39,080 bases of DNA from Acidobacteriota bacterium (GCA_016934555.1 JAFGSS010000097.1:1-39080); one strand, 5' to 3'. Positions 9,764 to 21,606 are shown, counted from the stretch's first letter. The notes: a model not told the origin generated them from the sequence alone. Program-made: numbers and translations.

Positions 9764-9835
9764 AGTTCCCTTTGCTCCCGTTGTCAATTCGGCAGGATCG
9801 AAATCGACAAAATGAGTTTCAGCCCGTGAAATTGA

Positions 9836-9864
9836 TTGACACTGGATGAAATGCATTATAGAAT
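9836..9864 (+). promoter_or_regulatory. Sigma-70-type promoter of the cupin operon
   Basis: A perfect -35 box TTGACA (9836-9841), a 17-bp spacer and a -10 box TAGAAT (9859-9864, five of six consensus bases) put the transcript start near 9871, about 35 bp before the cupin ATG. The surrounding 9594-9905 spacer is strikingly AT-rich for this genome and separates the two divergent operons. Confidence 0.75.
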
Positions 9865-9872
9865 GAAACTCG

Positions 9873-9889
9873 ATTCCGTGTAATGGAAC
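9873..9889. promoter_or_regulatory. Palindromic operator copy 1 (ATTCC-N7-GGAAC)
   Basis: ATTCCGTGTAATGGAAC has four-base inverted half-sites TTCC/GGAA spaced by seven bases. It begins a few bases after the predicted transcript start and ends just before the ribosome binding site of the cupin gene, a position typical of a repressor. The same motif recurs at 13234 and 19241. The nearby IclR-family regulator is the obvious candidate protein; this is inference. Confidence 0.7.
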
Positions 9890-9905
9890 AGAATGGAGAC
9901 ATTTT

Positions 9906-10295: not shown

Positions 10296-11216
10296 ATGAT
10301 TTTTGAACAGTCACGCAAGGCTATGAAGAGACTTGGGCTTCCGGAAGGCGACGCCTTCGATCTGCCCTCGTCAGAAAAGAGATTCCCGGATGGCGCCGCC
10401 TTCCGCATTGAGTGCCCCACCGTCAATTCCTCCGAGACCGTCAAGGCTCTGCTCGACACCGCGACCGAAAACGGCATCGTCATCAACCGCGTGACGGAAA
10501 CCTACGGGATGTTCCGCCACACCGCGAAAGAGATCAAGGAATACTGCAAACTCTGCCATGACTACGGTTGCGAGCTTCTGCTCTCCACCGGCCCCCGCGC
10601 CACCTACGACACCGGCGCGACGGTTCTCTCCCCGCAGGGCGTCCGCGTCGGCTACCGCCTCCGCGGCATGGAACAGCTCCTGCGCGCCATCGAAGACATC
10701 AAGCGCGGCTACGAGCTCGGATGCCGCGGCTTCCTGATCTACGACGAGGGCATGCTCTGGGTGGCCAACGAAATGCGCAAGAACGGCGACCTCCCCAAGG
10801 ACATGGTCTTCAAGTGCTCCGCCCACCTCGGCCACTGCAACCCGGCGTCCGCGAAGCTCCTGAAGGACCTGGGCGCCGACAGCATCAACCCGATCCGCGA
10901 CCTGCAGATCCCGATGCATGCGGCCATCCGCCAGGCGATCGGCGACACGCCGCTGGACATCCACACCGACAACCCTCCGGGATCGGGTGGATTCATCCGC
11001 GCCTACGAGGCTCCCGAGATCGTCCGCGTGGCGGCCCCCCTGCACTGCAAGACCGGAAACTCGGTCATCGGCGGGCACGGCGAGATGACGGGCGCCTCCG
11101 AAGGAAAGAAAATGGCCGCGCAGGCCACGATCATCGTCGAGATGATCAACCGGTACTACCCGGAACTGAAGCAGTCCGGCAAGAATGCCAAGGACATGTG
11201 CATCCCTGCTGTGTAG
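10296..11216 (+). CDS. Unassigned TIM-barrel-like protein, possibly distantly U32-peptidase-like
   Basis: The 306-residue soluble protein looks like an alpha/beta barrel: strand-like stretches (AFRIECPTV, GIVINRVTE, CELLLSTGP, GFLIYDEG, VFKCSAHLGH, DSINPIRDL, PLDIHTDNP) alternate with helices. Conserved-looking acidic and His residues sit at the strand ends (DEG, HLGHCN, DIHTDNPPGSGG). It faintly recalls U32-peptidase-like proteins but lacks their cysteine-containing signature, so I would not call it a peptidase. AAGGAGA nine bases before the ATG fixes the start. It is co-transcribed with the cupin and creatininase-family genes, which points to an isomerase, aldolase or lyase step in that pathway. 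Function unknown. Confidence 0.75.
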   Translation: MIFEQSRKAMKRLGLPEGDAFDLPSSEKRFPDGAAFRIECPTVNSSETVKALLDTATENGIVINRVTETYGMFRHTAKEIKEYCKLCHDYGCELLLSTGPRATYDTGATVLSPQGVRVGYRLRGMEQLLRAIEDIKRGYELGCRGFLIYDEGMLWVANEMRKNGDLPKDMVFKCSAHLGHCNPASAKLLKDLGADSINPIRDLQIPMHAAIRQAIGDTPLDIHTDNPPGSGGFIRAYEAPEIVRVAAPLHCKTGNSVIGGHGEMTGASEGKKMAAQATIIVEMINRYYPELKQSGKNAKDMCIPAV

Positions 11217-11261
11217 GTTCACCCTTTAGGCGGAATCCGATTCCGCGGAACAGGAGGAATC

Positions 11262-12245
11262 ATGGGTAGTAAATGGGGAGACTGGGGCAAATGGGAACTG
11301 CCTCCCAAGGGCGGTCACATGGAAACCCCCGGGGTCTATCTCCAGACCATGAACATGACGCAGATCAACGAGCGCCTCAAGACCAACGACCTGATCATCG
11401 TTCCGGTCGGAAGCACCGAGTGCCACGGGGCCGCTCAGCCCATCGGCGAGGACACCTTCCTCGTCACCCGCATGGCCGAACAGGTCGCGGCGAAAATGGG
11501 GTGCACGATCGCGATGCCGATCTGGTACGGGTCCCACCCGTACAACCATCTCGGCATGCCGGGCACCGTGGTCGTTCCCGAGGACGCTTTCCTGGCCAAC
11601 CTGAGGGCCGTCATCGCGGGCCTCTGGAACATGGGCTTCAGGAAACAGATCTTCCTGAACGGCCATGGCCAGGAGGAAGTCATTCCGCTGGCGCTCCACC
11701 AGTGGGCGAAGACGTACCAGGTGCCTTCGGTCCTGGTTTCGCTGCACTGGGAGACGGTCATTCACGACCACCTGAGGACCAAGGAATACGGCGGTCCTTT
11801 CGAAACCCAGTTCTCTCACGCGGACGAAGCGGAAGCGTCGTATTCTCTGGCGCTCTTCCCCGAGTTCTGCGACATGAAGCTGGCGGTGGACAACAAGCCC
11901 GCCGGGTTCATTCCGAAGGGACACGTGGACGGCGGCGGTGAAGTGTATCACCGGCCCATCAAGGGGCATGAACATATCGGCCTGAGCGGTTCGGAGGTCA
12001 ACGTCTACCCGGAAGGCGTCATCGGCAGCCCGACGCTGGCCCGTGCGGACAAGGCCTATGCGGGCATCAACGAACTGCTGGATTACCTGTGCAAGCTGAT
12101 CACCGACATCATGACGGCGTTCCCGGCGGGCAAGCTGCCGCCGGCCGACAAGGTCACGCAGCGCGACCCCAAGGAGATCGAAGCTCTCCTGAAGGGACCG
12201 CTCAACGGCGGGAAGCACATCTACACCGTTGCTTATCCCCCATAG
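11262..12245 (+). CDS. Creatininase-family amidohydrolase, resembles 3-dehydro-scyllo-inosose hydrolase IolN
   Basis: The 327-residue protein has the creatininase-fold metal motif VGSTECHGAAQPIGEDT (Glu53, His55, Asp64), the NGHGQE block, and a later acidic ligand in HADEAEASYSLALFPE. The family includes creatinine hydrolase, the FAPy deformylase ArfB, the mycofactocin peptidase MftE and the inositol-pathway hydrolase IolN, which opens a diketo-inositol ring to 5-keto-L-gluconate. Length and blocks such as PGT...EDAF, GLWNMGFRKQI and GHVDGGGEVYHRPI remind me most of IolN-like proteins, but that is memory, not a search. AGGAGG five bases before the ATG supports the start. A dehydrogenase across the promoter and a sugar isomerase at 21704 would fit an inosose-type route. 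Confidence 0.75.
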   Translation: MGSKWGDWGKWELPPKGGHMETPGVYLQTMNMTQINERLKTNDLIIVPVGSTECHGAAQPIGEDTFLVTRMAEQVAAKMGCTIAMPIWYGSHPYNHLGMPGTVVVPEDAFLANLRAVIAGLWNMGFRKQIFLNGHGQEEVIPLALHQWAKTYQVPSVLVSLHWETVIHDHLRTKEYGGPFETQFSHADEAEASYSLALFPEFCDMKLAVDNKPAGFIPKGHVDGGGEVYHRPIKGHEHIGLSGSEVNVYPEGVIGSPTLARADKAYAGINELLDYLCKLITDIMTAFPAGKLPPADKVTQRDPKEIEALLKGPLNGGKHIYTVAYPP

Positions 12246-12264
12246 TCGGAAACGTCTGTAAACC

Positions 12265-12310
12265 ATGCGGGGGATGCGGCGTCCAAACAGGGTGCCATAT
12301 CCCCCCGCAT
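12265..12310 (+). terminator. Hairpin between creatininase-family gene and IclR gene
   Basis: ATGCGGGGGAT (12265-12275) pairs with ATCCCCCCGCAT (12299-12310) with one bulge. No T-run follows. It lies 20 bp after the creatininase-family stop and could partly separate expression of the enzymes from that of the regulator. Confidence 0.45.
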
Positions 12311-12368
12311 CCGCCCCGGGGCGCAAGGGCCCCATGCGTTTCGCCAGGTCCCCGGAAGGAGGTTGGCT

Positions 12369-13163
12369 TTGTCCCAGTCCGTAAGGGCCGTCGAAAGGGC
12401 TCTGGATATCCTGCTCTGCTTTTCCCGCGAAGAACCGACGCGGTCGCTGACCCAGATCGCCGAGTCGGTCCAGATGTCCAAGACTACGGTCCACCGCCTC
12501 CTGACCACCCTCGAACTCAAGCGCTTCATCAGCCGTGACAAGGCCACCGGGCTCTACCGGCTCGGGTTCCGGCTCATTGAAATGGCCTCCCTGGTCCTGC
12601 AGGACATCGAGCTGCAGCGCTGGGCCATCCCCTATCTCCAGCGCCTCTCCTCCCAGTACGGCGAAACCGTGGACATGTCGATCCTGGAAGGGTCGCACGT
12701 GATGTACCTGGAGGTGATCGAAAGCCCGCAGCGGGTCAAGATCGCCGCCGCGGTCGGCCAGCGCCTCCCGGCCTATTACACCGCGAGCGGCAAGGCGATC
12801 CTGGCCTTTCTCCCCGAAGAACGGGTCCGCCCGATCCTGGGAAAAAACCTGGCCGAGGGCAACTCCCTCATCAAGCGGACGGTCCCCGAAATGCTCGCCA
12901 ACCTGAAGGAAATCTCGGAGCGCGGCTACGCCATCGCTGAAGAGGAGTACGAGCAGGACATCAACGCCGTCGCCGCCCCGCTTTTCGACGCCGACCATCA
13001 CCCGATCGCCTCGATCGCCATCGTCGGCCCTTCTTTCCGGCTCTCGAGGGATCGCCTCCCGGAACTGGGCGAATCCCTCCTTGAAATGACGCACACCATT
13101 TCGCGCGAAGTGGGCGCGGTCGCCCTGGCGACCATCGTCTCCAAATCCCGCCCCGTCAGGTAG
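12369..13163 (+). CDS. IclR-family transcriptional regulator
   Basis: The protein has an N-terminal winged helix-turn-helix (about 1-65; LTQIAESVQMSKTTVHRLLTTLE) and the IclR effector-binding domain (about 80-260; YYTASGKAILAFLPEE, RGYAIAEEEYEQDINAVAAPLFD). I choose the TTG at 12369 because AAGGAGG (12356-12362) lies six bases upstream; the TTG at 12363 touches the ribosome site and is less likely. The product is about 264 residues, normal for the family. IclR proteins bind inverted repeats as dimers of dimers, often with TTCC/GGAA-like half-sites, and respond to small organic acids. It is the only regulator in 9.9-24.5 kb and probably controls the three palindromes at 9873, 13234 and 19241. 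Confidence 0.93.
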   Translation: MSQSVRAVERALDILLCFSREEPTRSLTQIAESVQMSKTTVHRLLTTLELKRFISRDKATGLYRLGFRLIEMASLVLQDIELQRWAIPYLQRLSSQYGETVDMSILEGSHVMYLEVIESPQRVKIAAAVGQRLPAYYTASGKAILAFLPEERVRPILGKNLAEGNSLIKRTVPEMLANLKEISERGYAIAEEEYEQDINAVAAPLFDADHHPIASIAIVGPSFRLSRDRLPELGESLLEMTHTISREVGAVALATIVSKSRPVR

Positions 13164-13233
13164 GATCAGGAACATTCACGTTATGACATCACCCTACGTC
13201 GCAGAAAACCGGAACCGCTGCAGCCAAAACCTC

Positions 13234-13250
13234 ATTCCACAGGATGGAAA
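13234..13250. promoter_or_regulatory. Palindromic operator copy 2 (ATTCC-N7-GGAAA)
   Basis: ATTCCACAGGATGGAAA shares half-sites, spacing and the inner AT before GGAA with the sites at 9873 and 19241. It ends three bases before the -35 box of the ThiF-AOR promoter. Unlike copy 1 it lies upstream of the promoter, the position of an activator or of a regulator that blocks polymerase entry. Confidence 0.7.
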
Positions 13251-13253
13251 CTA

Positions 13254-13282
13254 TTGGCATACAGTGGAACATAGGGTATAAT
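13254..13282 (+). promoter_or_regulatory. Strong sigma-70-type promoter of the ThiF-AOR operon
   Basis: TTGGCA (13254-13259, five of six), exactly 17 bp, and a perfect TATAAT (13277-13282) place the start near 13289, about 35 bp before the first ATG. The 160-bp spacer 13164-13323 holds only this promoter and operator copy 2. Confidence 0.8.
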
Positions 13283-13323
13283 AGGGTGTTTTTAACGTTT
13301 ACGGCCAGAATGGGCGCAAGACC

Positions 13324-14061
13324 ATGACCCAGAACGATGAACGCTACGCCCGGCAGCTCGCGCTGCTGGGCTCGGAGGGTCAGGAGAAGCTCGCCCGCGC
13401 CCGGGTTCTGGTAGTGGGCGCAGGGGGGTTGGGCTCCCCCCTGCTCTCCTACCTGGCGGCGGCCGGAGTCGGGACCCTGACCTTCGTGGACGAAGACCAC
13501 GTGGCGGAAAGCAACCTGAACCGCCAGGTCCTCTACACGGAGGCCGACCTGGGTCGCTCGAAGGCCGAGCGAGCGGCAGAGCGCCTCGAGGCGCTGAACC
13601 GCACGGTGCGGGTGACGTCCATCGCGGCGCGTTTCACCGGCGAGAACGGTCCGGCGCTGGTGGCCCAGAGCGACCTCGTGGCGCTGGCGCTGGACAACCG
13701 GGAAACCCGGCTGCTGGCTAACCGCCTCTGCGTCGCGGCGGGAAGGCCGCTGGTGGACGGCGGCATCGACGGCTGGAGCGGATATGTCACCGCCGTCGTT
13801 CCGGGAAAGACTCCCTGCCTTTCGTGCTGGTTCGAAAAGCGGAAGCCCGGAGGGAGGGCCCCGGTGTCCCTGGGCCCCATGGCCGGCGTCATCGGTTCGA
13901 TGGAAGCCCTGGCGGTGCTCCAGATGCTGCTGGGACGCCCGGGCCCGGCAGGGAGGCTGATGCTGTTCAACGGCGCCCAATGGACGTTGTCGCCCCTGGG
14001 CGCGGGACGGCGCCCCGACTGCCCCGCCTGCGGAAACCGCGGGGAGGCCCCGCCGTCCTGA
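13324..14061 (+). CDS. ThiF/MoeB/HesA-family E1-like adenylyltransferase
   Basis: The 245-residue protein adenylates the C-terminal glycine of a ubiquitin-like sulfur carrier. Visible are the ATP-binding VVGAGGLGSPLLSYLAAAGVG (residues 30-50), the NRQVL motif, an Asp-containing LALDNRETR, and a structural zinc site made of CLSCW and CPACG. MoeB activates MoaD for molybdopterin synthesis and ThiF activates ThiS; this copy is the first gene of an AOR operon and its likely partner is the carrier at 15863. No rhodanese domain is present, so sulfur must come from elsewhere. The role in tungsto- or molybdopterin supply for the AOR is inferred from context. Confidence 0.88.
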   Translation: MTQNDERYARQLALLGSEGQEKLARARVLVVGAGGLGSPLLSYLAAAGVGTLTFVDEDHVAESNLNRQVLYTEADLGRSKAERAAERLEALNRTVRVTSIAARFTGENGPALVAQSDLVALALDNRETRLLANRLCVAAGRPLVDGGIDGWSGYVTAVVPGKTPCLSCWFEKRKPGGRAPVSLGPMAGVIGSMEALAVLQMLLGRPGPAGRLMLFNGAQWTLSPLGAGRRPDCPACGNRGEAPPS

Positions 14062-14126
14062 CGGACGGCAAAAACAGCGAAGTTCGTGTGTAGATCCGGA
14101 ATCATTCTTTGTTGGAGACATCATTT

Positions 14127-15842
14127 ATGACGAAGATCATCAGAGTTGACATGGAAACCAAGGGGATCACCCAGGAGGACGCCGGCAAATACAACAGCTA
14201 CGGCGCCCGAGGCTTTGTCGCCCGTTTCCTCACCGATGAGGTCGACCCGACCTGCGAACCCCTCGGCATCCACAACAAGCTCATCTTCTGCACGGGCCTG
14301 CTCGGGGGGACCATGGTCTCCAGTTCCGGCCGGCTTTCGGTGGGGGGGAAGAGCCCGCTCACCCAGGGCATCAAGGAAGCCAGTTCGGGAGGCACGGCAG
14401 GGAACGACTTGGCCCGGCACGGCATCCGCGCCGTCATCATCGAACGGCTGCCCGCCCCCGATGACAAGAACAGCTATGTCTTGGTGATCTCCGACGATGG
14501 GATCAGGCTCGAGACCATGAACGACCTGCAGTACATGGGAGTGCGCGACACCTTCAGGACCCTGCGGGAGCGCTTCGACGACAAGGCAGGCGTCATCTGC
14601 AACGGCCCCACGGGCGAACGCCTGATGCGGGGTGCCGGCATCGCAGTCGCCGCCCCGCGCGGGGAGATGCGGTTCGCCGCCCGCGGCGGCATGGGCGCCG
14701 TGATGGGGAGCAAGCGGCTGAAGGCCATCGTCATTGTCCCGGCCAGGATCTCCAAGGTGGAGTACTTCGACAAGGCCGCCTTCACCGAAGCCGCGAAGGA
14801 ATTTCACCAGATGCTGATCGACGCCATGCCCACCATCAAGAAGAGCAACCAGACGTTCGGCACCTCCGGGATGTTCAAGATCGTCAACGAACTGGGGCTG
14901 TGCCCCACGCGCAATTTCACCCTCGGCGCCTTCGATTTTCACACCGAGATCGGCGGCGAGAAGATGGTCGAGCTCATCCGGGCCCGCGGCGGCGAGGGCA
15001 AGACCGGCCAGTCGTGCATGAACGGCTGCATGATCAAGTGCCTCTCCGTCTTCCCCGACGAAAACGGCAAGGCCAGCTGTTCCACCCTCCAGTATGAAAA
15101 CCTGTCGCTGCTCGGTTCCAACCTCTGCCTCGCCACCCTGGATAGCATCGCCCACCTGAACGACAAGGTAAACGACCTGGGGCAGGACGCCATCGAGATC
15201 GGGGCCGCCCTGGGTGTGGCCGCGGAAGCCGGGCTGGCCGAGTTCGGCAACGAGGAAAGCTTCATGAAGCTGCTGGCCGAGGTGGAGGCCGCCACGCCGC
15301 TGGGTCGCGTCATCGGCAACGGCGTCAAGATCACGGGGGAGGTGCTCGGGATCAACGACCTCCCCATGACCAAGGGACAGGCGATGCCGGCCTACGACCC
15401 CCGCGCGCTGAAGGGGAACGGCGTCACCTTCGCCATGAACCCGATGGGGGCCGACCACACCATGGGCAACCTCTACGGCGCCCGCGCCACCATGCCGCCC
15501 CTGGCCACGGAAGGACAGGGGGACCTCTCCCGCAAGACCCAGCTGCAGATGGCGGGGCTGGAAAACACGGGCTTCTGCATCTTCGTCCGGAGTTACCTGT
15601 TCAAGAAACCGGAGCTCTTCACCCGGTTCGCCTACGGCATCTGCGGCGACAAGATGACGGTGGAGGAGTTCTGGGAACAGGGGCTCGAAACCGCCCGGCT
15701 GGAATACGAGTACAACGTCAAGGCCGGCATCGCCCCTTCCCAGGACAAGCTGCCGGAGTACATGTACCGGATTCCCCTCCCCCCCACCAATTCGGTGTTC
15801 GACCTCTCCGACGAGGAGATGCTGAAGGGAGTCCTGCGCTAG
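14127..15842 (+). CDS. Aldehyde:ferredoxin oxidoreductase-family protein (AOR 1)
   Basis: The 571-residue enzyme matches tungsten- or molybdenum-bispyranopterin AORs, which oxidise aldehydes to acids with ferredoxin or reduce acids in reverse. N-terminal pterin-binding landmarks are LLGGTMVSSSGRLSVGGKSPLTQG and AARGGMGAVMGSKRLKAI. The 4Fe-4S ligands appear to be Cys297, Cys301 and Cys305 (spacing C-x3-C-x3-C) plus Cys484 in TGFCIF. The classic Pyrococcus enzyme has C-x2-C-x3-C, so this is a distinct subgroup. I choose the ATG at 14127, eight bases after GGAGA, over an upstream TTG. It is followed after 20 bp by the sulfur-carrier gene. The substrate aldehyde is unknown. Confidence 0.92.
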   Translation: MTKIIRVDMETKGITQEDAGKYNSYGARGFVARFLTDEVDPTCEPLGIHNKLIFCTGLLGGTMVSSSGRLSVGGKSPLTQGIKEASSGGTAGNDLARHGIRAVIIERLPAPDDKNSYVLVISDDGIRLETMNDLQYMGVRDTFRTLRERFDDKAGVICNGPTGERLMRGAGIAVAAPRGEMRFAARGGMGAVMGSKRLKAIVIVPARISKVEYFDKAAFTEAAKEFHQMLIDAMPTIKKSNQTFGTSGMFKIVNELGLCPTRNFTLGAFDFHTEIGGEKMVELIRARGGEGKTGQSCMNGCMIKCLSVFPDENGKASCSTLQYENLSLLGSNLCLATLDSIAHLNDKVNDLGQDAIEIGAALGVAAEAGLAEFGNEESFMKLLAEVEAATPLGRVIGNGVKITGEVLGINDLPMTKGQAMPAYDPRALKGNGVTFAMNPMGADHTMGNLYGARATMPPLATEGQGDLSRKTQLQMAGLENTGFCIFVRSYLFKKPELFTRFAYGICGDKMTVEEFWEQGLETARLEYEYNVKAGIAPSQDKLPEYMYRIPLPPTNSVFDLSDEEMLKGVLR

Positions 15843-15862
15843 GCGGGAGTTGGAGACACCTC

Positions 15863-16087
15863 ATGATCGAGTTGGAATACAACCTGATGCTGGCGGAGCT
15901 GGCGGGCAGGAGCGGGGAAACGCTCCATATCGGCGCCCCCCTGCCCTTGCCGGAGCTCGAAGCCCGGCTCGGCTTCCCCCCCGACAGCGTGGGGATGCTG
16001 CTCATCAACGGCGTCTGGGCCCCCCTGGACAGCGTCATCAGGGACGGCGACTTCGTCCAGCTCTATCCCCACATGGAGGGCGGATAA
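15863..16087 (+). CDS. MoaD/ThiS-like ubiquitin-fold sulfur carrier
   Basis: The 74-residue protein ends in Met-Glu-Gly-Gly, the free Gly-Gly tail needed for adenylation and thiocarboxylation. The LLINGVWAPLDSVIRDGDFVQLYPHMEGG stretch has the typical MoaD/ThiS pattern: an Asn-Gly turn, a D-x-x-I/L-x-D-GD block, then a hydrophobic strand before Gly-Gly. GGAGA eight bases before the ATG supports the start. It sits between AOR 1 and the radical SAM gene and shares an operon with the E1-like gene, so E1 and carrier form a pair. No MoaE is present in this window; the receiver of the sulfur could be the host MoaE or something specific to the AOR cofactor. Confidence 0.85.
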   Translation: MIELEYNLMLAELAGRSGETLHIGAPLPLPELEARLGFPPDSVGMLLINGVWAPLDSVIRDGDFVQLYPHMEGG

Positions 16088-16139
16088 CCCGGCGTCACGG
16101 TCGGGCTCCGCGCCATCCGCGGAAAGAACCGTCAGAGTG

Positions 16140-17438
16140 ATGAACCACAACCCATCCGACACGGCCGGGGCGCGCGCCCCGGCCGCGAGTTCCGCCGACC
16201 CCCTGATCAAGGCCTACGTGGAACCCACCAACCGCTGCAACCTCAACTGCGTGACCTGCATCCGCCACAGCTGGGACGAATCGCCCGAGGACCTGGACTG
16301 GTCCGTTTACGGGAGACTGATCGAGGGCCTGGCGGCCTTCCCCGAAGCCCGGACTGTGGCCTTCGCCGGTTTCGGGGAGCCGCTGCTGCATCCCCGTTTT
16401 CCCGACATGATCCGCCTGGCCCACGACCGGGGGCTGCGCACGGAAATCACGACCAACGCCATGCTCCTCAGCCCGGCGATGGCGGAGCGGCTGATCTACG
16501 CCGGGCTGGACCAGATCACCGTGTCCGTCGACGGCACGTCGGACAGATCCCACGGCGCCGTCCGGCCCGGGGCGTCGCTCGACCGGATCGTGCAAAACGT
16601 CCGGACTCTCTACCTCTGGAGCCTGGTGAAGCATACGACGCCGCCCGACGCCGACGCAGACCTGAAGAAGAGGACCATGGCGAGCCTCGAGGAACTGGCC
16701 GGCGCCCCCTCTCCCCCGCTCGAAGCCACCGACTTCCTCTACCCCATGGAGGACATGCTCGACACCCTGCCGCAGGCGCCCGTGCGGATCGGGATCGAAT
16801 TCGTGGCGATGAAGAGCAACATCCACGAACTGCCGGGGCTCCAGGAGATCGCCAGGAAGATCCGGGCGTCCTTCATCCTGGTCTCGAACGTGCTGCCCTA
16901 CGCGCCCGAGCTCCAGGACGAAATCCTCTACGACATGACGCCCACCAGCCACGAGTCCCCCGGGGACCCGCGCAACCCGCTCTGGATCCTTCCCAGGATG
17001 GACTGGAGCCGGGAAGCAGTCGAGGCCGTATCGGCCGTGGCCTGGCGGCAGGCCAACCTGAGCTACCTCGACATCAACCTCGGCCAGCGGAACAACTATT
17101 GCCCCTTCATCGGCCCGGGAAGCGTGTCCCTCTCATGCCACGGCGGGATCAGTCCCTGTCCGCCGCTGCTTCACTCCTACACCTGCTACATCCAGGGCTG
17201 GAAGAAGTTCTTTCGCAGCTGCGTCTACGGAAACCTGAGGGAGCAGTCCCTGGAACCGGTCTGGCGGCGGCCCGATTACGCCGCCTTCAGGGAGCGCGTG
17301 AGGAAATTCGAGTTTTCCCCCTGCATCGACTGCTGCGGGTGCGAGTTCGCCGAAGGGAACGAAACCGATTGTCACGGCAACCCGTTCCCCGTCTGCGGCC
17401 ACTGCCTCTGGGCCCGCGGCGTCCTGCGCTGCGCCTGA
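16140..17438 (+). CDS. SPASM-type radical SAM protein, tungsten-oxidoreductase maturase type
   Basis: The protein has the radical SAM cluster CNLNCVTC (Cys33, Cys37, Cys40) after VEPTNR, a GFGEPLLHP motif (SAM binding) and VSVDGTSD. The C-terminal third has more than ten cysteines, including CHGGISPCPPLL and CIDCCGCEFAEGNETDC...CGHC, as in SPASM or twitch auxiliary clusters. A radical SAM family is known to sit beside tungsten-cofactor oxidoreductases as a proposed maturase, and this gene matches by context and architecture. GTG (16137) and ATG (16140) starts are adjacent; I use the ATG. It is the last gene of the ThiF-AOR operon and converges on AOR 2. Its target, peptide modification or cofactor assembly, is unknown. 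Confidence 0.88.
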   Translation: MNHNPSDTAGARAPAASSADPLIKAYVEPTNRCNLNCVTCIRHSWDESPEDLDWSVYGRLIEGLAAFPEARTVAFAGFGEPLLHPRFPDMIRLAHDRGLRTEITTNAMLLSPAMAERLIYAGLDQITVSVDGTSDRSHGAVRPGASLDRIVQNVRTLYLWSLVKHTTPPDADADLKKRTMASLEELAGAPSPPLEATDFLYPMEDMLDTLPQAPVRIGIEFVAMKSNIHELPGLQEIARKIRASFILVSNVLPYAPELQDEILYDMTPTSHESPGDPRNPLWILPRMDWSREAVEAVSAVAWRQANLSYLDINLGQRNNYCPFIGPGSVSLSCHGGISPCPPLLHSYTCYIQGWKKFFRSCVYGNLREQSLEPVWRRPDYAAFRERVRKFEFSPCIDCCGCEFAEGNETDCHGNPFPVCGHCLWARGVLRCA

Positions 17439-17458
17439 CCCTCTCCCGCGCCCCCTGC

Positions 17459-19171
17459 CTAGAGCGTGTCGAACACGGAATCCAGGTCGGAATCGGGGAC
17501 GTCGAACACCGTGTTGTGGGGAGGCAGCGGCTCTTCGCGCATGTATTCCGGGATCCGGTAATCGTTCGGGGTCAATCCGGCCCGGCGGTTGAACTCCAGT
17601 TCGGTGCGCAGGACCTCCCGGTTGAAGCGGTCGTAGTCCTCGAGCGTCCAGCCCCAGCCGTAGATGCCGTTGATCATGTCGATCATCAGCTGCGGCTTGG
17701 AGATGATGGGCGGCCGGGCGAAGAGGCACAATCCCGTGCTGTCGAGCATGGCGGCGATGATCTGCAGCTTCAGCGAGAGCTCCTTCTGCCCCTCGACGCC
17801 CAGAGGATTGACCTCGAGCCGGGCTCCGAAGGCGTTGCCCGCGGTGTGGTCCGCTCCCTGCGGGGAGGTCGCATAGGTCACGCCGTTCCCCTTCAGTGCG
17901 CGGGGATCGTAAGCCGGCATCGCCTGCCCGACTGCGGCCGGCACCCGGCGGACACCCAGCACCCTGCCCGTGGTGACGCACCCGGACCCGATCATGCGGC
18001 CGACGACCGTCCCCTCGCCCACCTGCCGGAGCAGACCGACAAGACTGTCGATATCCCCGAATTTCGCCAGGCCCGCCTCCACGGCGACCCCGAGCGCGGC
18101 GCCCGTCTCGATGGTGTCCAGCCCGAAATCGTTGCACATGTAGTTCAGGGTCGCCACGTCGTCGAGAGTGTCCAGGCCCAGGTTGGAGCCGACGAGCCCG
18201 ATGGTCTCGTACTGCACGCTCCCGACCACCGGCTTCCCCTCCTTGTCGTTGAAAAGGTTGCGGCAGGCGATGACGCACCCGGGCATGCAGCGGGTGCCCA
18301 CCTTCCCCTCGCGGGCGAGGATGATTTCACGGAGCTTTTCGCCCCGCAGTTCGGCCGCGCCTTCGAACCGCCCCGAGGAGAAACTGCGCGTCGGCAGCGC
18401 CCCCATCTCGTTGACGGCGCCGACGATCGAAGCCGTGCCGTACAGGTGCTGGGATCCCTTGACCCCCAGCTTGGGGCTCGTGATCAGGGCCTGGGCGAAC
18501 TCCTTGCAGGCGGTGCGGAAAAGCTTGTCGTCATGCATCCGGACCGCTTTGCCCAGCGCCTTCTTGATGACGACGGCCTTCAGCCCCTTGCTCCCCATGA
18601 CGGCGCCCAGTCCGCCGCGGGCGGCATGGTTGCTGCGCTGGTCCCGTTCCCCGGTCGCCGCGATGCCCGCACCCGACATCAGGTACTCCCCCGCCTGGCC
18701 GATCGAGATGACGGTCGCGTCTTCGCCGTAGCGCTCCTGCAACCGGTCGGCGGTCGCGTAAGTGCCGATGTTGCGGATGTCGCCCGCGGGGACCAGTTCG
18801 GCCGAGTCCCCGTCCAAGACCAGGATGGAAAACTCCCCGGGGGCCGGCTGCTGTTCCACCACGATCGCCTTGATGCCCCACTTGCCCAGGGTGTCCCCTG
18901 CTGTCCCGCCGGCGTTGGCCTCCTTGATCCCCCCCGTCAGCGGACTCTTGGCCCCGACCGAAAGCCTTCCGGCCGTGGGCACAATGGCCCCGCCCAGCAA
19001 CCCGGGAGTGAAAATGAGCTTGTTGTGCGGCCCCAGGGCGTCGCAGGCGGGAGGGATTTCACCCAGAAGAAGTTTCGCGATCAGGGCTCTGCCGCCAAGC
19101 TGTTCATATTCCTTGGGAACGGGCTCCCAACGAACGTTCTTTTCCTTCATATTGACACGCAGTATCTTCAT
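17459..19171 (-). CDS. Aldehyde:ferredoxin oxidoreductase-family protein (AOR 2)
   Basis: The 570-residue paralogue of AOR 1 has the same landmarks: GLLGGAIVPTAGRLSVGAKSPLTGG, HAARGGLGAVMGSKGLKAV, cluster cysteines Cys295, Cys299, Cys303 (again C-x3-C-x3-C, RCMPGCVIAC) and Cys482 in TGLCLF. GGAGG six bases before the ATG fixes the start. It lies on the opposite strand, ends 20 bp from the radical SAM gene, and is transcribed away from the isocitrate dehydrogenase, with operator copy 3 in the shared spacer. Two AORs could act on different aldehydes or run in opposite directions. Cofactor metal and substrate cannot be read from sequence. Confidence 0.92.
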   Translation of the reverse strand: MKILRVNMKEKNVRWEPVPKEYEQLGGRALIAKLLLGEIPPACDALGPHNKLIFTPGLLGGAIVPTAGRLSVGAKSPLTGGIKEANAGGTAGDTLGKWGIKAIVVEQQPAPGEFSILVLDGDSAELVPAGDIRNIGTYATADRLQERYGEDATVISIGQAGEYLMSGAGIAATGERDQRSNHAARGGLGAVMGSKGLKAVVIKKALGKAVRMHDDKLFRTACKEFAQALITSPKLGVKGSQHLYGTASIVGAVNEMGALPTRSFSSGRFEGAAELRGEKLREIILAREGKVGTRCMPGCVIACRNLFNDKEGKPVVGSVQYETIGLVGSNLGLDTLDDVATLNYMCNDFGLDTIETGAALGVAVEAGLAKFGDIDSLVGLLRQVGEGTVVGRMIGSGCVTTGRVLGVRRVPAAVGQAMPAYDPRALKGNGVTYATSPQGADHTAGNAFGARLEVNPLGVEGQKELSLKLQIIAAMLDSTGLCLFARPPIISKPQLMIDMINGIYGWGWTLEDYDRFNREVLRTELEFNRRAGLTPNDYRIPEYMREEPLPPHNTVFDVPDSDLDSVFDTL

Positions 19172-19240
19172 GGCGGACCTCCAGAGATATTAGGGTTGAC
19201 CCTCCATAAGATTAGGCTTCATCCCACCATGCGTCAACGA

Positions 19241-19257
19241 ATTCCACCTAATGGAAC
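19241..19257. promoter_or_regulatory. Palindromic operator copy 3 (ATTCC-N7-GGAAC)
   Basis: ATTCCACCTAATGGAAC differs from copy 1 mainly in the central bases. It lies in the 197-bp spacer between AOR 2 (minus) and isocitrate dehydrogenase (plus), 69 bp from the AOR 2 start and 111 bp from the isocitrate dehydrogenase start. A possible AOR 2 -35 box (TTGACG on the minus strand, 19232-19237) adjoins it. The site probably serves AOR 2 and perhaps both genes. Confidence 0.65.
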
Positions 19258-19368
19258 AAATTGTCCGAAAATATTTCAAGATATCTGGAATCTTACCCTG
19301 CTTTTGGAAGCCTTCTCAAGCCTGTTACCATGATATATCATCACCAAAGAGAAAGGGGAGGCGCGATC

Positions 19369-21606
19369 ATGACGGAGAAGCCCTCGGCATCGACCATATA
19401 CTGGACATGGACGGACGAGGCACCGGCGCTAGCCACCCTCTCCCTCTTCCCCATCATCCAGGCTTTCACCCGGCGGACGGGCATCCGCGTCGAGCTCGCC
19501 GACATTTCCCTGGCGGGGCGCATCCTGGCCAATTTCCCCGAATGGCTGACCGACTCTCAGCGGGTACCCGACTGGCTGACCCGGCTGGGGGAACTCACCC
19601 TGAAGCCCGAGGCCAACATCATCAAGCTTCCCAACATCTCCGCATCGGTCCCGCAGCTCGTCGAGGCCGTCCGGGAGCTGCAGGCGCAGGCGTACGCCGT
19701 CCCCGACTATCCGGAGGCCCCCGAAGGCGACGGGGAAAGGGGCATCCGCGCGCGCTACGACATCGTTCTCGGGAGCGCGGTGAACCCGGTGATCCGGGAG
19801 GGGAACTCGGACCGCCGCCTCCCCCCCGCCGTCAAGGCCTACGCCCGGAAGCACCCCCGGAAGCTGGGCGCCTGGAGCCCGGACTCCCTGACCCACGTCT
19901 CCCACATGTCCCGGGGAGACTTCTATGAAAGCGAAAGGGCCGTCACGGTGGAGCGCCCGGGGGAGGCGGTCTACGAATTCCTGGCCGATGACGGGACCGT
20001 CACCGTGCTGAAAAAGGGGCCGGAGCTCGGCAAGGGGGATATCCTGGACGCCGCCGTGCTGAACGTGCGCCAGCTGCGCGCCTTCTACCGGGAGGAGATC
20101 GCGGACGCCCGGGAGCGGGGGGTCCTCTTCTCGCTCCACGTAAAGGCCACCATGATGAAGGTGTCCGACCCGGTGATCTTCGGACACGCCGTCAGCACCT
20201 TCCTGGAGCCCGTATTCGCAAAGCACGCCGACCTCTTCGCCCGGCTGGGAATCAACCCCGACAACGGTTTGGGAGAACTGTACGCAAGGATCGAATCCCT
20301 CGGCCCGGATGCACGCGCGGGATTGGAGTCGGACATCCGGAAGACCATGGAGGAGCGGCCGGAGCTGGCCATGGTCGACTCGGAACGCGGGATCACCAAC
20401 CTCCACGTCCCCAACAACGTCATCATCGACGCCTCCATCCCCGCCATGATCCGCGACTCCGGGAAGATGTGGGGGCCGGACGGCCGGTTGCACGACACCA
20501 AGGCCGTGATTCCCGACCGCTGCTACGCCACGATCTACAAGGCCATCGTCGAGGACTGCGTGAGAAACGGCGCCTTCGACCCGGGGACCATGGGGAGCGT
20601 GCCGAACGTCGGCCTCATGGCGCAGCAGGCGGAGGAGTACGGTTCCCACGACAAGACCTTCATCGCCCCCGGGCCGGGCCTCATCCGCGTCCGCTACACC
20701 GATACCGGGGACACCCTGATCAGCCGGACGGTCGAGCCCGGGGACATCTTCCGCTCCTGCCGGACGACCGACGCCTCCATCCGCGACTGGGTGCAGCTGG
20801 CCGTCCGCCGCGCACGCCAGAGCGGCACCCCCGCCGTCTTCTGGCTCGACCCCGGGCGGGAGCATGACGCGGAGGTCATCCGCAAGGTCGAACGGGACCT
20901 CGGCGACTGCGACCTCCAGGGCCTCGACATCCGCGTGATGACGCCGGTCGAGGCGATGGAGTTCTCGCTCGGGCGCGTCCGCGGGGGCCTCGATACCATT
21001 TCGGTTACGGGCAACGTCCTGCGCGACTACCTGACCGACCTTTTCCCCATTCTCGAGGTCGGTACCTCGGGGAAGATGCTGTCGATCGTTCCGCTCCTGG
21101 CCGGGGGGGGGATGTTCGAAACGGGCGCCGGGGGGAGCGCGCCCAAGCACGTGCGGCAGTTCATCAAGGAAAACTACCTCCGCTGGGACTCCCTCGGCGA
21201 ATTCTCGAACCTGGCCGCCTCCCTGCAGCACATGGGAACGGTCTTCCGGAACGCCGCGGCCTCCCTCCTCTCCGAAACGCTCGAGGACGCCATCGGCGCC
21301 TTCCTCGAGCACGACCGCTCCCCCGCCCGCAAGCTGGGCAGCATCGACTGCCGCGGCAGTCACTTCTACCTGGCCCTCTACTGGGCCCGGGCGCTGGCCG
21401 ACCGGGCCGGGGACAACCCCCTCGGCGCCCGGTTCGCACTGCTCGGGCGGCGCCTGGCCGAAAACGAGGAGAAGATCAACGCCGAACTGATCGGCGCCCA
21501 GGGGCGCCCGGTGGAGATGGGCGGGTACTACCACCCCGACCTCGCCCGGACCTCCGCCGCGATGCGCCCCAGTCCCGCCCTGAACGCCATCATCGACAAC
21601 GCATGA
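19369..21606 (+). CDS. Monomeric-type NADP-dependent isocitrate dehydrogenase
   Basis: The 745-residue protein matches the length and motifs of the monomeric isocitrate dehydrogenase family: [16 protein letters not shown] at the N-terminus, [26 protein letters not shown] (isocitrate-binding Ser/Asn/Arg), [20 protein letters not shown] (catalytic Lys) and [22 protein letters not shown]. It converts isocitrate to 2-oxoglutarate and CO2 in the cytoplasm and makes NADPH. I start at the ATG at 19369 because AAAGGGGAGG lies eight bases upstream and the next residues match the family N-terminus; the frame remains open upstream. Its position between AOR 2 and a sugar-catabolic operon is unusual for a central enzyme. 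It may supply reductant or simply be a neighbour. Confidence 0.96.

Follow-up and report, generated by a model that had tools for sequence, protein, structure and literature searches.

Clusters that join an aldehyde oxidoreductase (AOR) gene to genes for a MoaD-like protein and a MoeB-like activating enzyme were proposed in 2006 to serve synthesis of the tungsten cofactor (Iyer, Burroughs and Aravind; PMC1779556), and a more recent report places worX and thiF next to a Class I WOR (Putumbaka 2026; PMC13328260). In Thermococcus kodakarensis, an AOR (tk1066) is followed by a ubiquitin-like protein (Ubl; tk1065, UblC) and a radical SAM protein (tk1064), and the 2024 study of this organism remarks that AOR-linked radical SAM proteins "might" act in cofactor maturation (PMC11323500). 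The aorABCDE operon of Aromatoleum aromaticum likewise carries extra genes, aorD and aorE, with a putative MoaD-like role in cofactor maturation (PMC6365974). Here we analyze a cassette in a 39,080-nucleotide stretch of DNA from an Acidobacteriota bacterium (GCA_016934555.1, JAFGSS010000097.1:1-39080; the whole stretch is referred to as the window), in which genes for an E1-like adenylyltransferase (E1), a tungsten-type AOR (AOR1), a MoaD/ThiS-like carrier, and a radical SAM/SPASM protein follow one another. The cassette unites two known patterns, AOR-carrier-radical SAM and AOR-MoaD-ThiF. The pairwise arrangements are already published; what is new is the union of all four genes and a radical SAM clade that lies outside the curated tungsten-maturase family.

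The cassette resembles the AOR-MoaD-MoeB and worX-thiF clusters, as described in the available parts of those papers (PMC1779556, PMC13328260), in placing a MoaD/ThiS-like gene beside the AOR, together with a MoeB/ThiF-like E1 and apart from the main molybdenum cofactor (Moco) operon. The adjacency of carrier and AOR is strict, and an E1 accompanies them, as in the clusters defined in 2006. The same parts of the two papers list no radical SAM/SPASM gene in those operons, unlike the situation here. Cetobacterium has an AOR-MoaD-ThiF arrangement with no radical SAM gene, and its E1 comes last, whereas that of the cassette comes first. Both T. kodakarensis and plasmid pTLIE01 of Thermovirga lienii share the trio found in the cassette, with the carrier between AOR and radical SAM protein, but their operons lack an E1. 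The 32-kb plasmid (locus L090) holds the complete AOR-MoaD-radical SAM trio, a set that could pass from one host to another. Plasmid records searched with the cassette carrier gave no matches. Across Synergistota, radical SAM proteins resembling the family TIGR04317 (W_rSAM_matur) occur in 11 of 151 genomes, adjoining an AOR in all 11, a MoaD-like gene in 8, and an E1 in none. The Aromatoleum operon is comparable as an AOR operon with added MoaD-like putative maturation genes, but its AOR is a three-subunit, NAD-linked enzyme, and no radical SAM protein is mentioned (PMC6365974).

The genes, their motifs and order, and the joint occurrence of AOR1, carrier, and radical SAM protein are established, and from them we infer a probable role in AOR1 maturation: the carrier, optionally aided by the E1, would feed sulfur to the pterin cofactor of AOR1, and the radical SAM protein would be an AOR1-specific maturase. 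The E1 would use ATP to adenylate the carrier at its C-terminal glycine, AMP would give way to sulfur supplied by a donor whose gene lies outside the cassette, yielding a carrier thiocarboxylate, and the carrier would then act with the single MoaE of the genome to provide dithiolene sulfur for a cofactor whose metal is presumably tungsten. A housekeeping E1 could substitute for the dedicated enzyme, which would account for loss of the latter in relatives. The radical SAM/SPASM protein would carry out an AOR1-specific maturation step, with either the cofactor or the AOR1 chain as its target. This reading is favored by retention of the carrier Gly-Gly terminus in six genomes, of the adenylation and zinc motifs in E1, and of the Fe-S Cys, Glu, and His residues in AOR1. 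It is also favored by the way the radical SAM gene tracks AOR1, by the parallels in Synergistota, T. lienii, and T. kodakarensis, and by the 2006 tungsten-cofactor proposal.

Co-occurrence was traced in ten related genomes of the genus, mostly draft assemblies, including that of the window itself (G000, a 3.25-Mb draft, 96.6% complete, in which the window is contig C87). AOR1 and the carrier are present in six (G000, G122, G085, G266, G037, and G298), and an orthologue of the radical SAM protein, at least 63% identical, in the first five; it was not found in G298, a 76% complete assembly. Its presence in five of the six genomes with AOR1 and in none of the four without it corresponds to a Fisher p of about 0.024, calculated by hand and ignoring relatedness. 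The AOR1, carrier, and radical SAM genes are contiguous in four genomes, and in G037 the radical SAM gene (contig C64) is unlinked to AOR1 (C5). Because G188, G113, and G242 have AOR2, a second AOR also present in the window, without a radical SAM orthologue, the radical SAM gene tracks AOR1 and not AOR2. Full E1 orthologues are restricted to three AOR1 genomes (G000, G122, and G085). In G266, a broken E1 remnant of about 30 residues lies 5' of AOR1, outside any long frame (L062, about 2489-2578, - strand), and AOR1, carrier, and radical SAM genes remain intact. These distributions support AOR1, carrier, and radical SAM protein as a functional core, apparently linked in function even where the genes are unlinked (G037), and E1, the least conserved member, appears to be an optional addition to it. 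The preliminary description had proposed a functional link between AOR-linked carrier and radical SAM maturase and had looked to co-occurrence of all four genes across genomes; both ideas hold for the core, the former also in the Synergistota and Thermococcus trios, and the co-occurrence does not extend to the dedicated E1.

AOR1, like AOR2, has AFOR_N and AFOR_C domains; it conserves the 4Fe-4S ligands Cys297, Cys301, Cys305, and Cys484 together with Glu324 and His444, which mark it by sequence as an AOR/WOR large subunit, and it matches the solved AORs 9mqx, 9g7j, and 1aor. Its start is at 14127, with a TTG at 14109 as a weaker upstream alternative. The carrier scores 25.7 bits against Ub-Mut7C (cut-off 23) and 21.0 against ThiS, just under the cut-off of 22.5, and its profile matches AOR-linked MoaD-like carriers over 73 columns with a probability of 96%, consistent with a ThiS/MoaD-type beta-grasp domain with a Gly-Gly end. 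The C-terminus reads ...HMEGG, its Gly-Gly is invariant among orthologues in all six AOR1 genomes, and orthologues in relatives are 93, 89, 64, and 60% identical; the predicted structure, at a predicted local distance difference test (pLDDT) score of 49, was too poor for structure search. The E1 combines a ThiF domain (3e-67) with the nucleotide-binding motifs and zinc-binding Cys pairs of a ThiF/MoeB adenylyltransferase (GAGGLGSP, NLNRQ, Lys, DN, and two CxxC). It falls under the NCBIfam equivalog cut-offs for MoeB/ThiF (145.6 against 376.55 for TIGR02355 and 187.5 against 275.25 for TIGR02356) and has no Cys at the acyl-disulfide position of Escherichia coli ThiF. The housekeeping E1 of the genome, on contig C59, also lacks this catalytic Cys, and its absence is therefore no special trait of the window protein. 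Nonsynonymous divergence (dN) is well below synonymous divergence (dS) for each of the four genes in comparisons with G122 and G085, and purifying selection thus acts on all of them.

The cassette had been described beforehand as self-contained and as lacking MoaE and rhodanese. Both genes are indeed absent from it but occur elsewhere in the genome, and self-containment, already at odds with the patchy distribution of E1, does not survive the genome-wide search for a second MoaD/MoaE/MoeB set. That search recovered adjacent MoaD and MoaE genes on C198, the latter the only MoaE, and the second E1 on C59, so the private set is not the sole one; The genome also has MoaA on C29 (368 bits, above cut-off), rhodaneses, and additional Ubl genes (C65 and C166). 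Two candidate assignments were rejected. The window E1 is not the only E1 of the genome, given the copy on C59, and the radical SAM protein is not MoaA: it scores 53.8 bits where the cut-off is 284, and the true MoaA lies on C29. With a second E1, MoaD-MoaE, MoaA, and rhodaneses encoded elsewhere, the cassette can account for no more than a part of cofactor synthesis, and it is an addition to the housekeeping pathway. The most closely comparable experiment comes from T. kodakarensis: in pyruvate medium, a strain without the AOR-linked Ubl had about 54% AOR activity and no detectable FOR activity, whereas in sulfur medium a triple mutant showed no loss; a single E1, unlinked to the Ubl genes, is presumed to act on every Ubl of that organism (PMC11323500). 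Such carriers therefore contribute to cofactor supply, yet are redundant, and the experiment favors cofactor sulfur supply.

Several observations weigh against the maturation reading. The genomes compared are related and mostly drafts, so that the co-occurrence counts are not independent. Residues that mark radical-SAM-linked AORs are confined to few positions, none convincing and none an obvious modification target. Each of the three Ubls of T. kodakarensis, the AOR-linked Ubl among them, becomes conjugated to proteins (PMC11323500), making conjugation of the carrier to AOR1 conceivable. Finally, the radical SAM protein falls among arsenic-operon proteins and not among the Synergistota tungsten maturases, so that the TIGR04317 name is no guide to its role here.

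TIGR04317 is the top NCBIfam model for the radical SAM protein, at 271 bits against a cut-off of 380; the T. lienii protein, by contrast, is a full member at 502 bits. As in that family, the gene adjoins a tungsten-type oxidoreductase, and nine Cys residues beyond the CxxxCxxC motif (33/37/40) are common to the genus, TIGR04317, and arsenic-linked (ars-linked) groups, whereas Cys 333, 349, and 361 are unique to the window clade. Translation would start at GTG 16137 or ATG 16140, and the predicted structure (pLDDT 43) was too poor for structure search. In unrooted trees of 33 and 30 proteins, in which two long branches meet, the five genus proteins form one clade (100/100 in both), and the AOR-linked Synergistota proteins form another (100/100 in the 30-protein tree), split from the window clade and the ars-linked proteins. 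Close relatives (>60% identity) are confined to this genus among 396 genomes of the phylum, and a contig scan with the protein returned one full relative (L016, contig JAAYAJ010000040.1). Many of the distant, full-length relatives (about 33-39%) have an N-terminal AbrB-like stretch, recognized by eye with no call by Pfam, and those examined sit in arsenic operons with ArsR, ACR3 (454-457 bits, cut-off 283), and a DsbD-like membrane protein. Arsenic-operon radical SAM/SPASM loci in Acidobacteriota include L061, L064, L066, L075, and L078. A tentative extension of the maturation reading would make the window protein a separate maturase lineage, sister to the arsenic-operon proteins and recruited independently for an AOR1-specific modification, with the dedicated carrier-E1 pair supplying sulfur; radical-SAM-assisted AOR maturation might then have been invented twice. 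With no root, and with two long branches coming together, that tree makes "independently recruited" a reading and not a result.

Among the alternatives, the one that survives best, though we consider it unlikely, is that the radical SAM protein introduces a cross-link or thioether into AOR1 itself instead of acting on the cofactor, a modification that AOR2 would then lack. SPASM proteins often modify peptides, and the preference of the radical SAM gene for AOR1 over AOR2 across the genus fits such a role, as does the wealth of clade-specific Cys, Met, Tyr, and Trp residues in AOR1 (C334, C318, C259, C506, M131, and M437, for example). However, none of these residues is held in common with the radical-SAM-linked Synergistota AORs, Pfam detects no dedicated substrate-recognition domain in the radical SAM protein, and the published Pyrococcus furiosus AOR structure is not known to have been reported with a modification. 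Rather less credible is a small ubiquitin-like conjugation system, in which the carrier glycine would be joined to a lysine in AOR1 or in some other protein, tuning activity or stability, while the housekeeping MoaD would give the cofactor its sulfur. The T. kodakarensis conjugates speak for it, and a genome with MoaD-MoaE, MoaA, and another E1 does not strictly require a second carrier. Nevertheless, none of the four cassette proteins has an E2, E3, or JAB protease domain by Pfam, the E1 (like its housekeeping counterpart) lacks the ThiF catalytic Cys and is lost while the carrier stays, and the fall of both AOR and FOR in the T. kodakarensis mutant is what cofactor supply predicts. That AOR1 and carrier form a functional pair with E1 and radical SAM genes as mere passengers is the least probable, for although three of the six AOR1 genomes either lack E1 or have it broken, and the radical SAM gene is unlinked in one and was not found in another, that gene tracks AOR1 even when unlinked, the trio is contiguous in four genomes, selection preserves every gene, and AOR-radical SAM pairs are also found separately in a second phylum and among archaea.

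The arrangement of the locus is given in Table 1. The preliminary description had placed E1, AOR, Gly-Gly carrier, and SPASM radical SAM genes on one strand, behind one near-consensus promoter and facing a convergent AOR; the open reading frames, at the same positions and strands, and their domains bear this out. The four genes stand 65, 20, and 52 bp apart, a spacing consistent with a single operon.

Table 1. Features of the cassette and its flanks, in window coordinates.
Feature	Position	Strand	Basis
E1-like ThiF/MoeB adenylyltransferase, 245 aa	13324..14061	+	PF00899
AOR1, tungsten-type aldehyde oxidoreductase large subunit, 571 aa	14127..15842	+	PF02730/PF01314
MoaD/ThiS-like carrier, 74 aa, Gly-Gly C-terminus	15863..16087	+	Ub-Mut7C; ThiS just under cut-off
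Radical SAM/SPASM protein, 432 aa	16140..17438	+	PF04055 and PF13186
AOR2, second AOR large subunit, convergent	17459..19171	-	PF02730/PF01314
IclR-family regulator directly upstream of cassette	12363..13163	+	PF01614/PF09339
Sigma-70-type promoter TTGGCA-N17-TATAAT, spacer conserved (AGTGGAAC)	13254..13282	+	11/12 match

An equal match to the promoter consensus arose in none of 40 simulated 8-kb sequences. The element recurs 5' of E1-AOR1 in G085 (18 of 20 specified positions) and, in G037, which has no E1, immediately 5' of AOR1 (20 of 20), and it thus belongs to the AOR1 unit and not to E1. Conservation of all four proteins in relatives, with dN far below dS for each gene, places the cassette beyond chance. 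An Rfam scan of 11000-20500 revealed no RNA element such as a Moco riboswitch. TGGAA/TTCCA half-sites and TTGRCA-type -35 elements are seen both in the cassette promoter (13230-13285) and in that of the neighboring cupin/IolN/IclR operon (9830-9900), and again in L113 (1535-1600); the IclR regulator is a possible common controller of cassette and operon, to judge from these sequences. The IolN-like gene of the window (11262-12245) encodes a creatininase-family protein scoring 498 bits for IolN (3-dehydro-scyllo-inosose hydrolase; cut-off 245), and adjoins a gene for a 306-aa protein with no Pfam match.

AOR2 has orthologues in G122, at the same convergent position, and in G188, G113, G242, and G266. 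In the latter four, a separate carrier with a Gly-Gly end comes after AOR2 and shares about 30% identity with that of the cassette; the corresponding loci are L112, L113, L114, and L115, where these carriers measure about 74 aa. AOR2 and its carrier in G113 and G266 adjoin the IclR and IolN/306-aa gene set that also occurs in the window. Only 20-30 bp separate the end of the radical SAM gene from AOR2 in the window (20 bp from the stop codon) and in G122, leaving no room for the AOR2-linked carrier, which is gone, and in these two genomes both AORs may draw on the cassette carrier. The window genome has 11 AFOR_C-domain genes, AOR1 and AOR2 included, several of which appear longer and more distant.

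The genus thus provides a natural comparison, with two AORs per cell, one of them tracked by a radical SAM gene, and with relatives in which the E1 has been lost or the radical SAM gene has become unlinked. It is well suited to identifying the reaction of AOR-linked radical SAM proteins.

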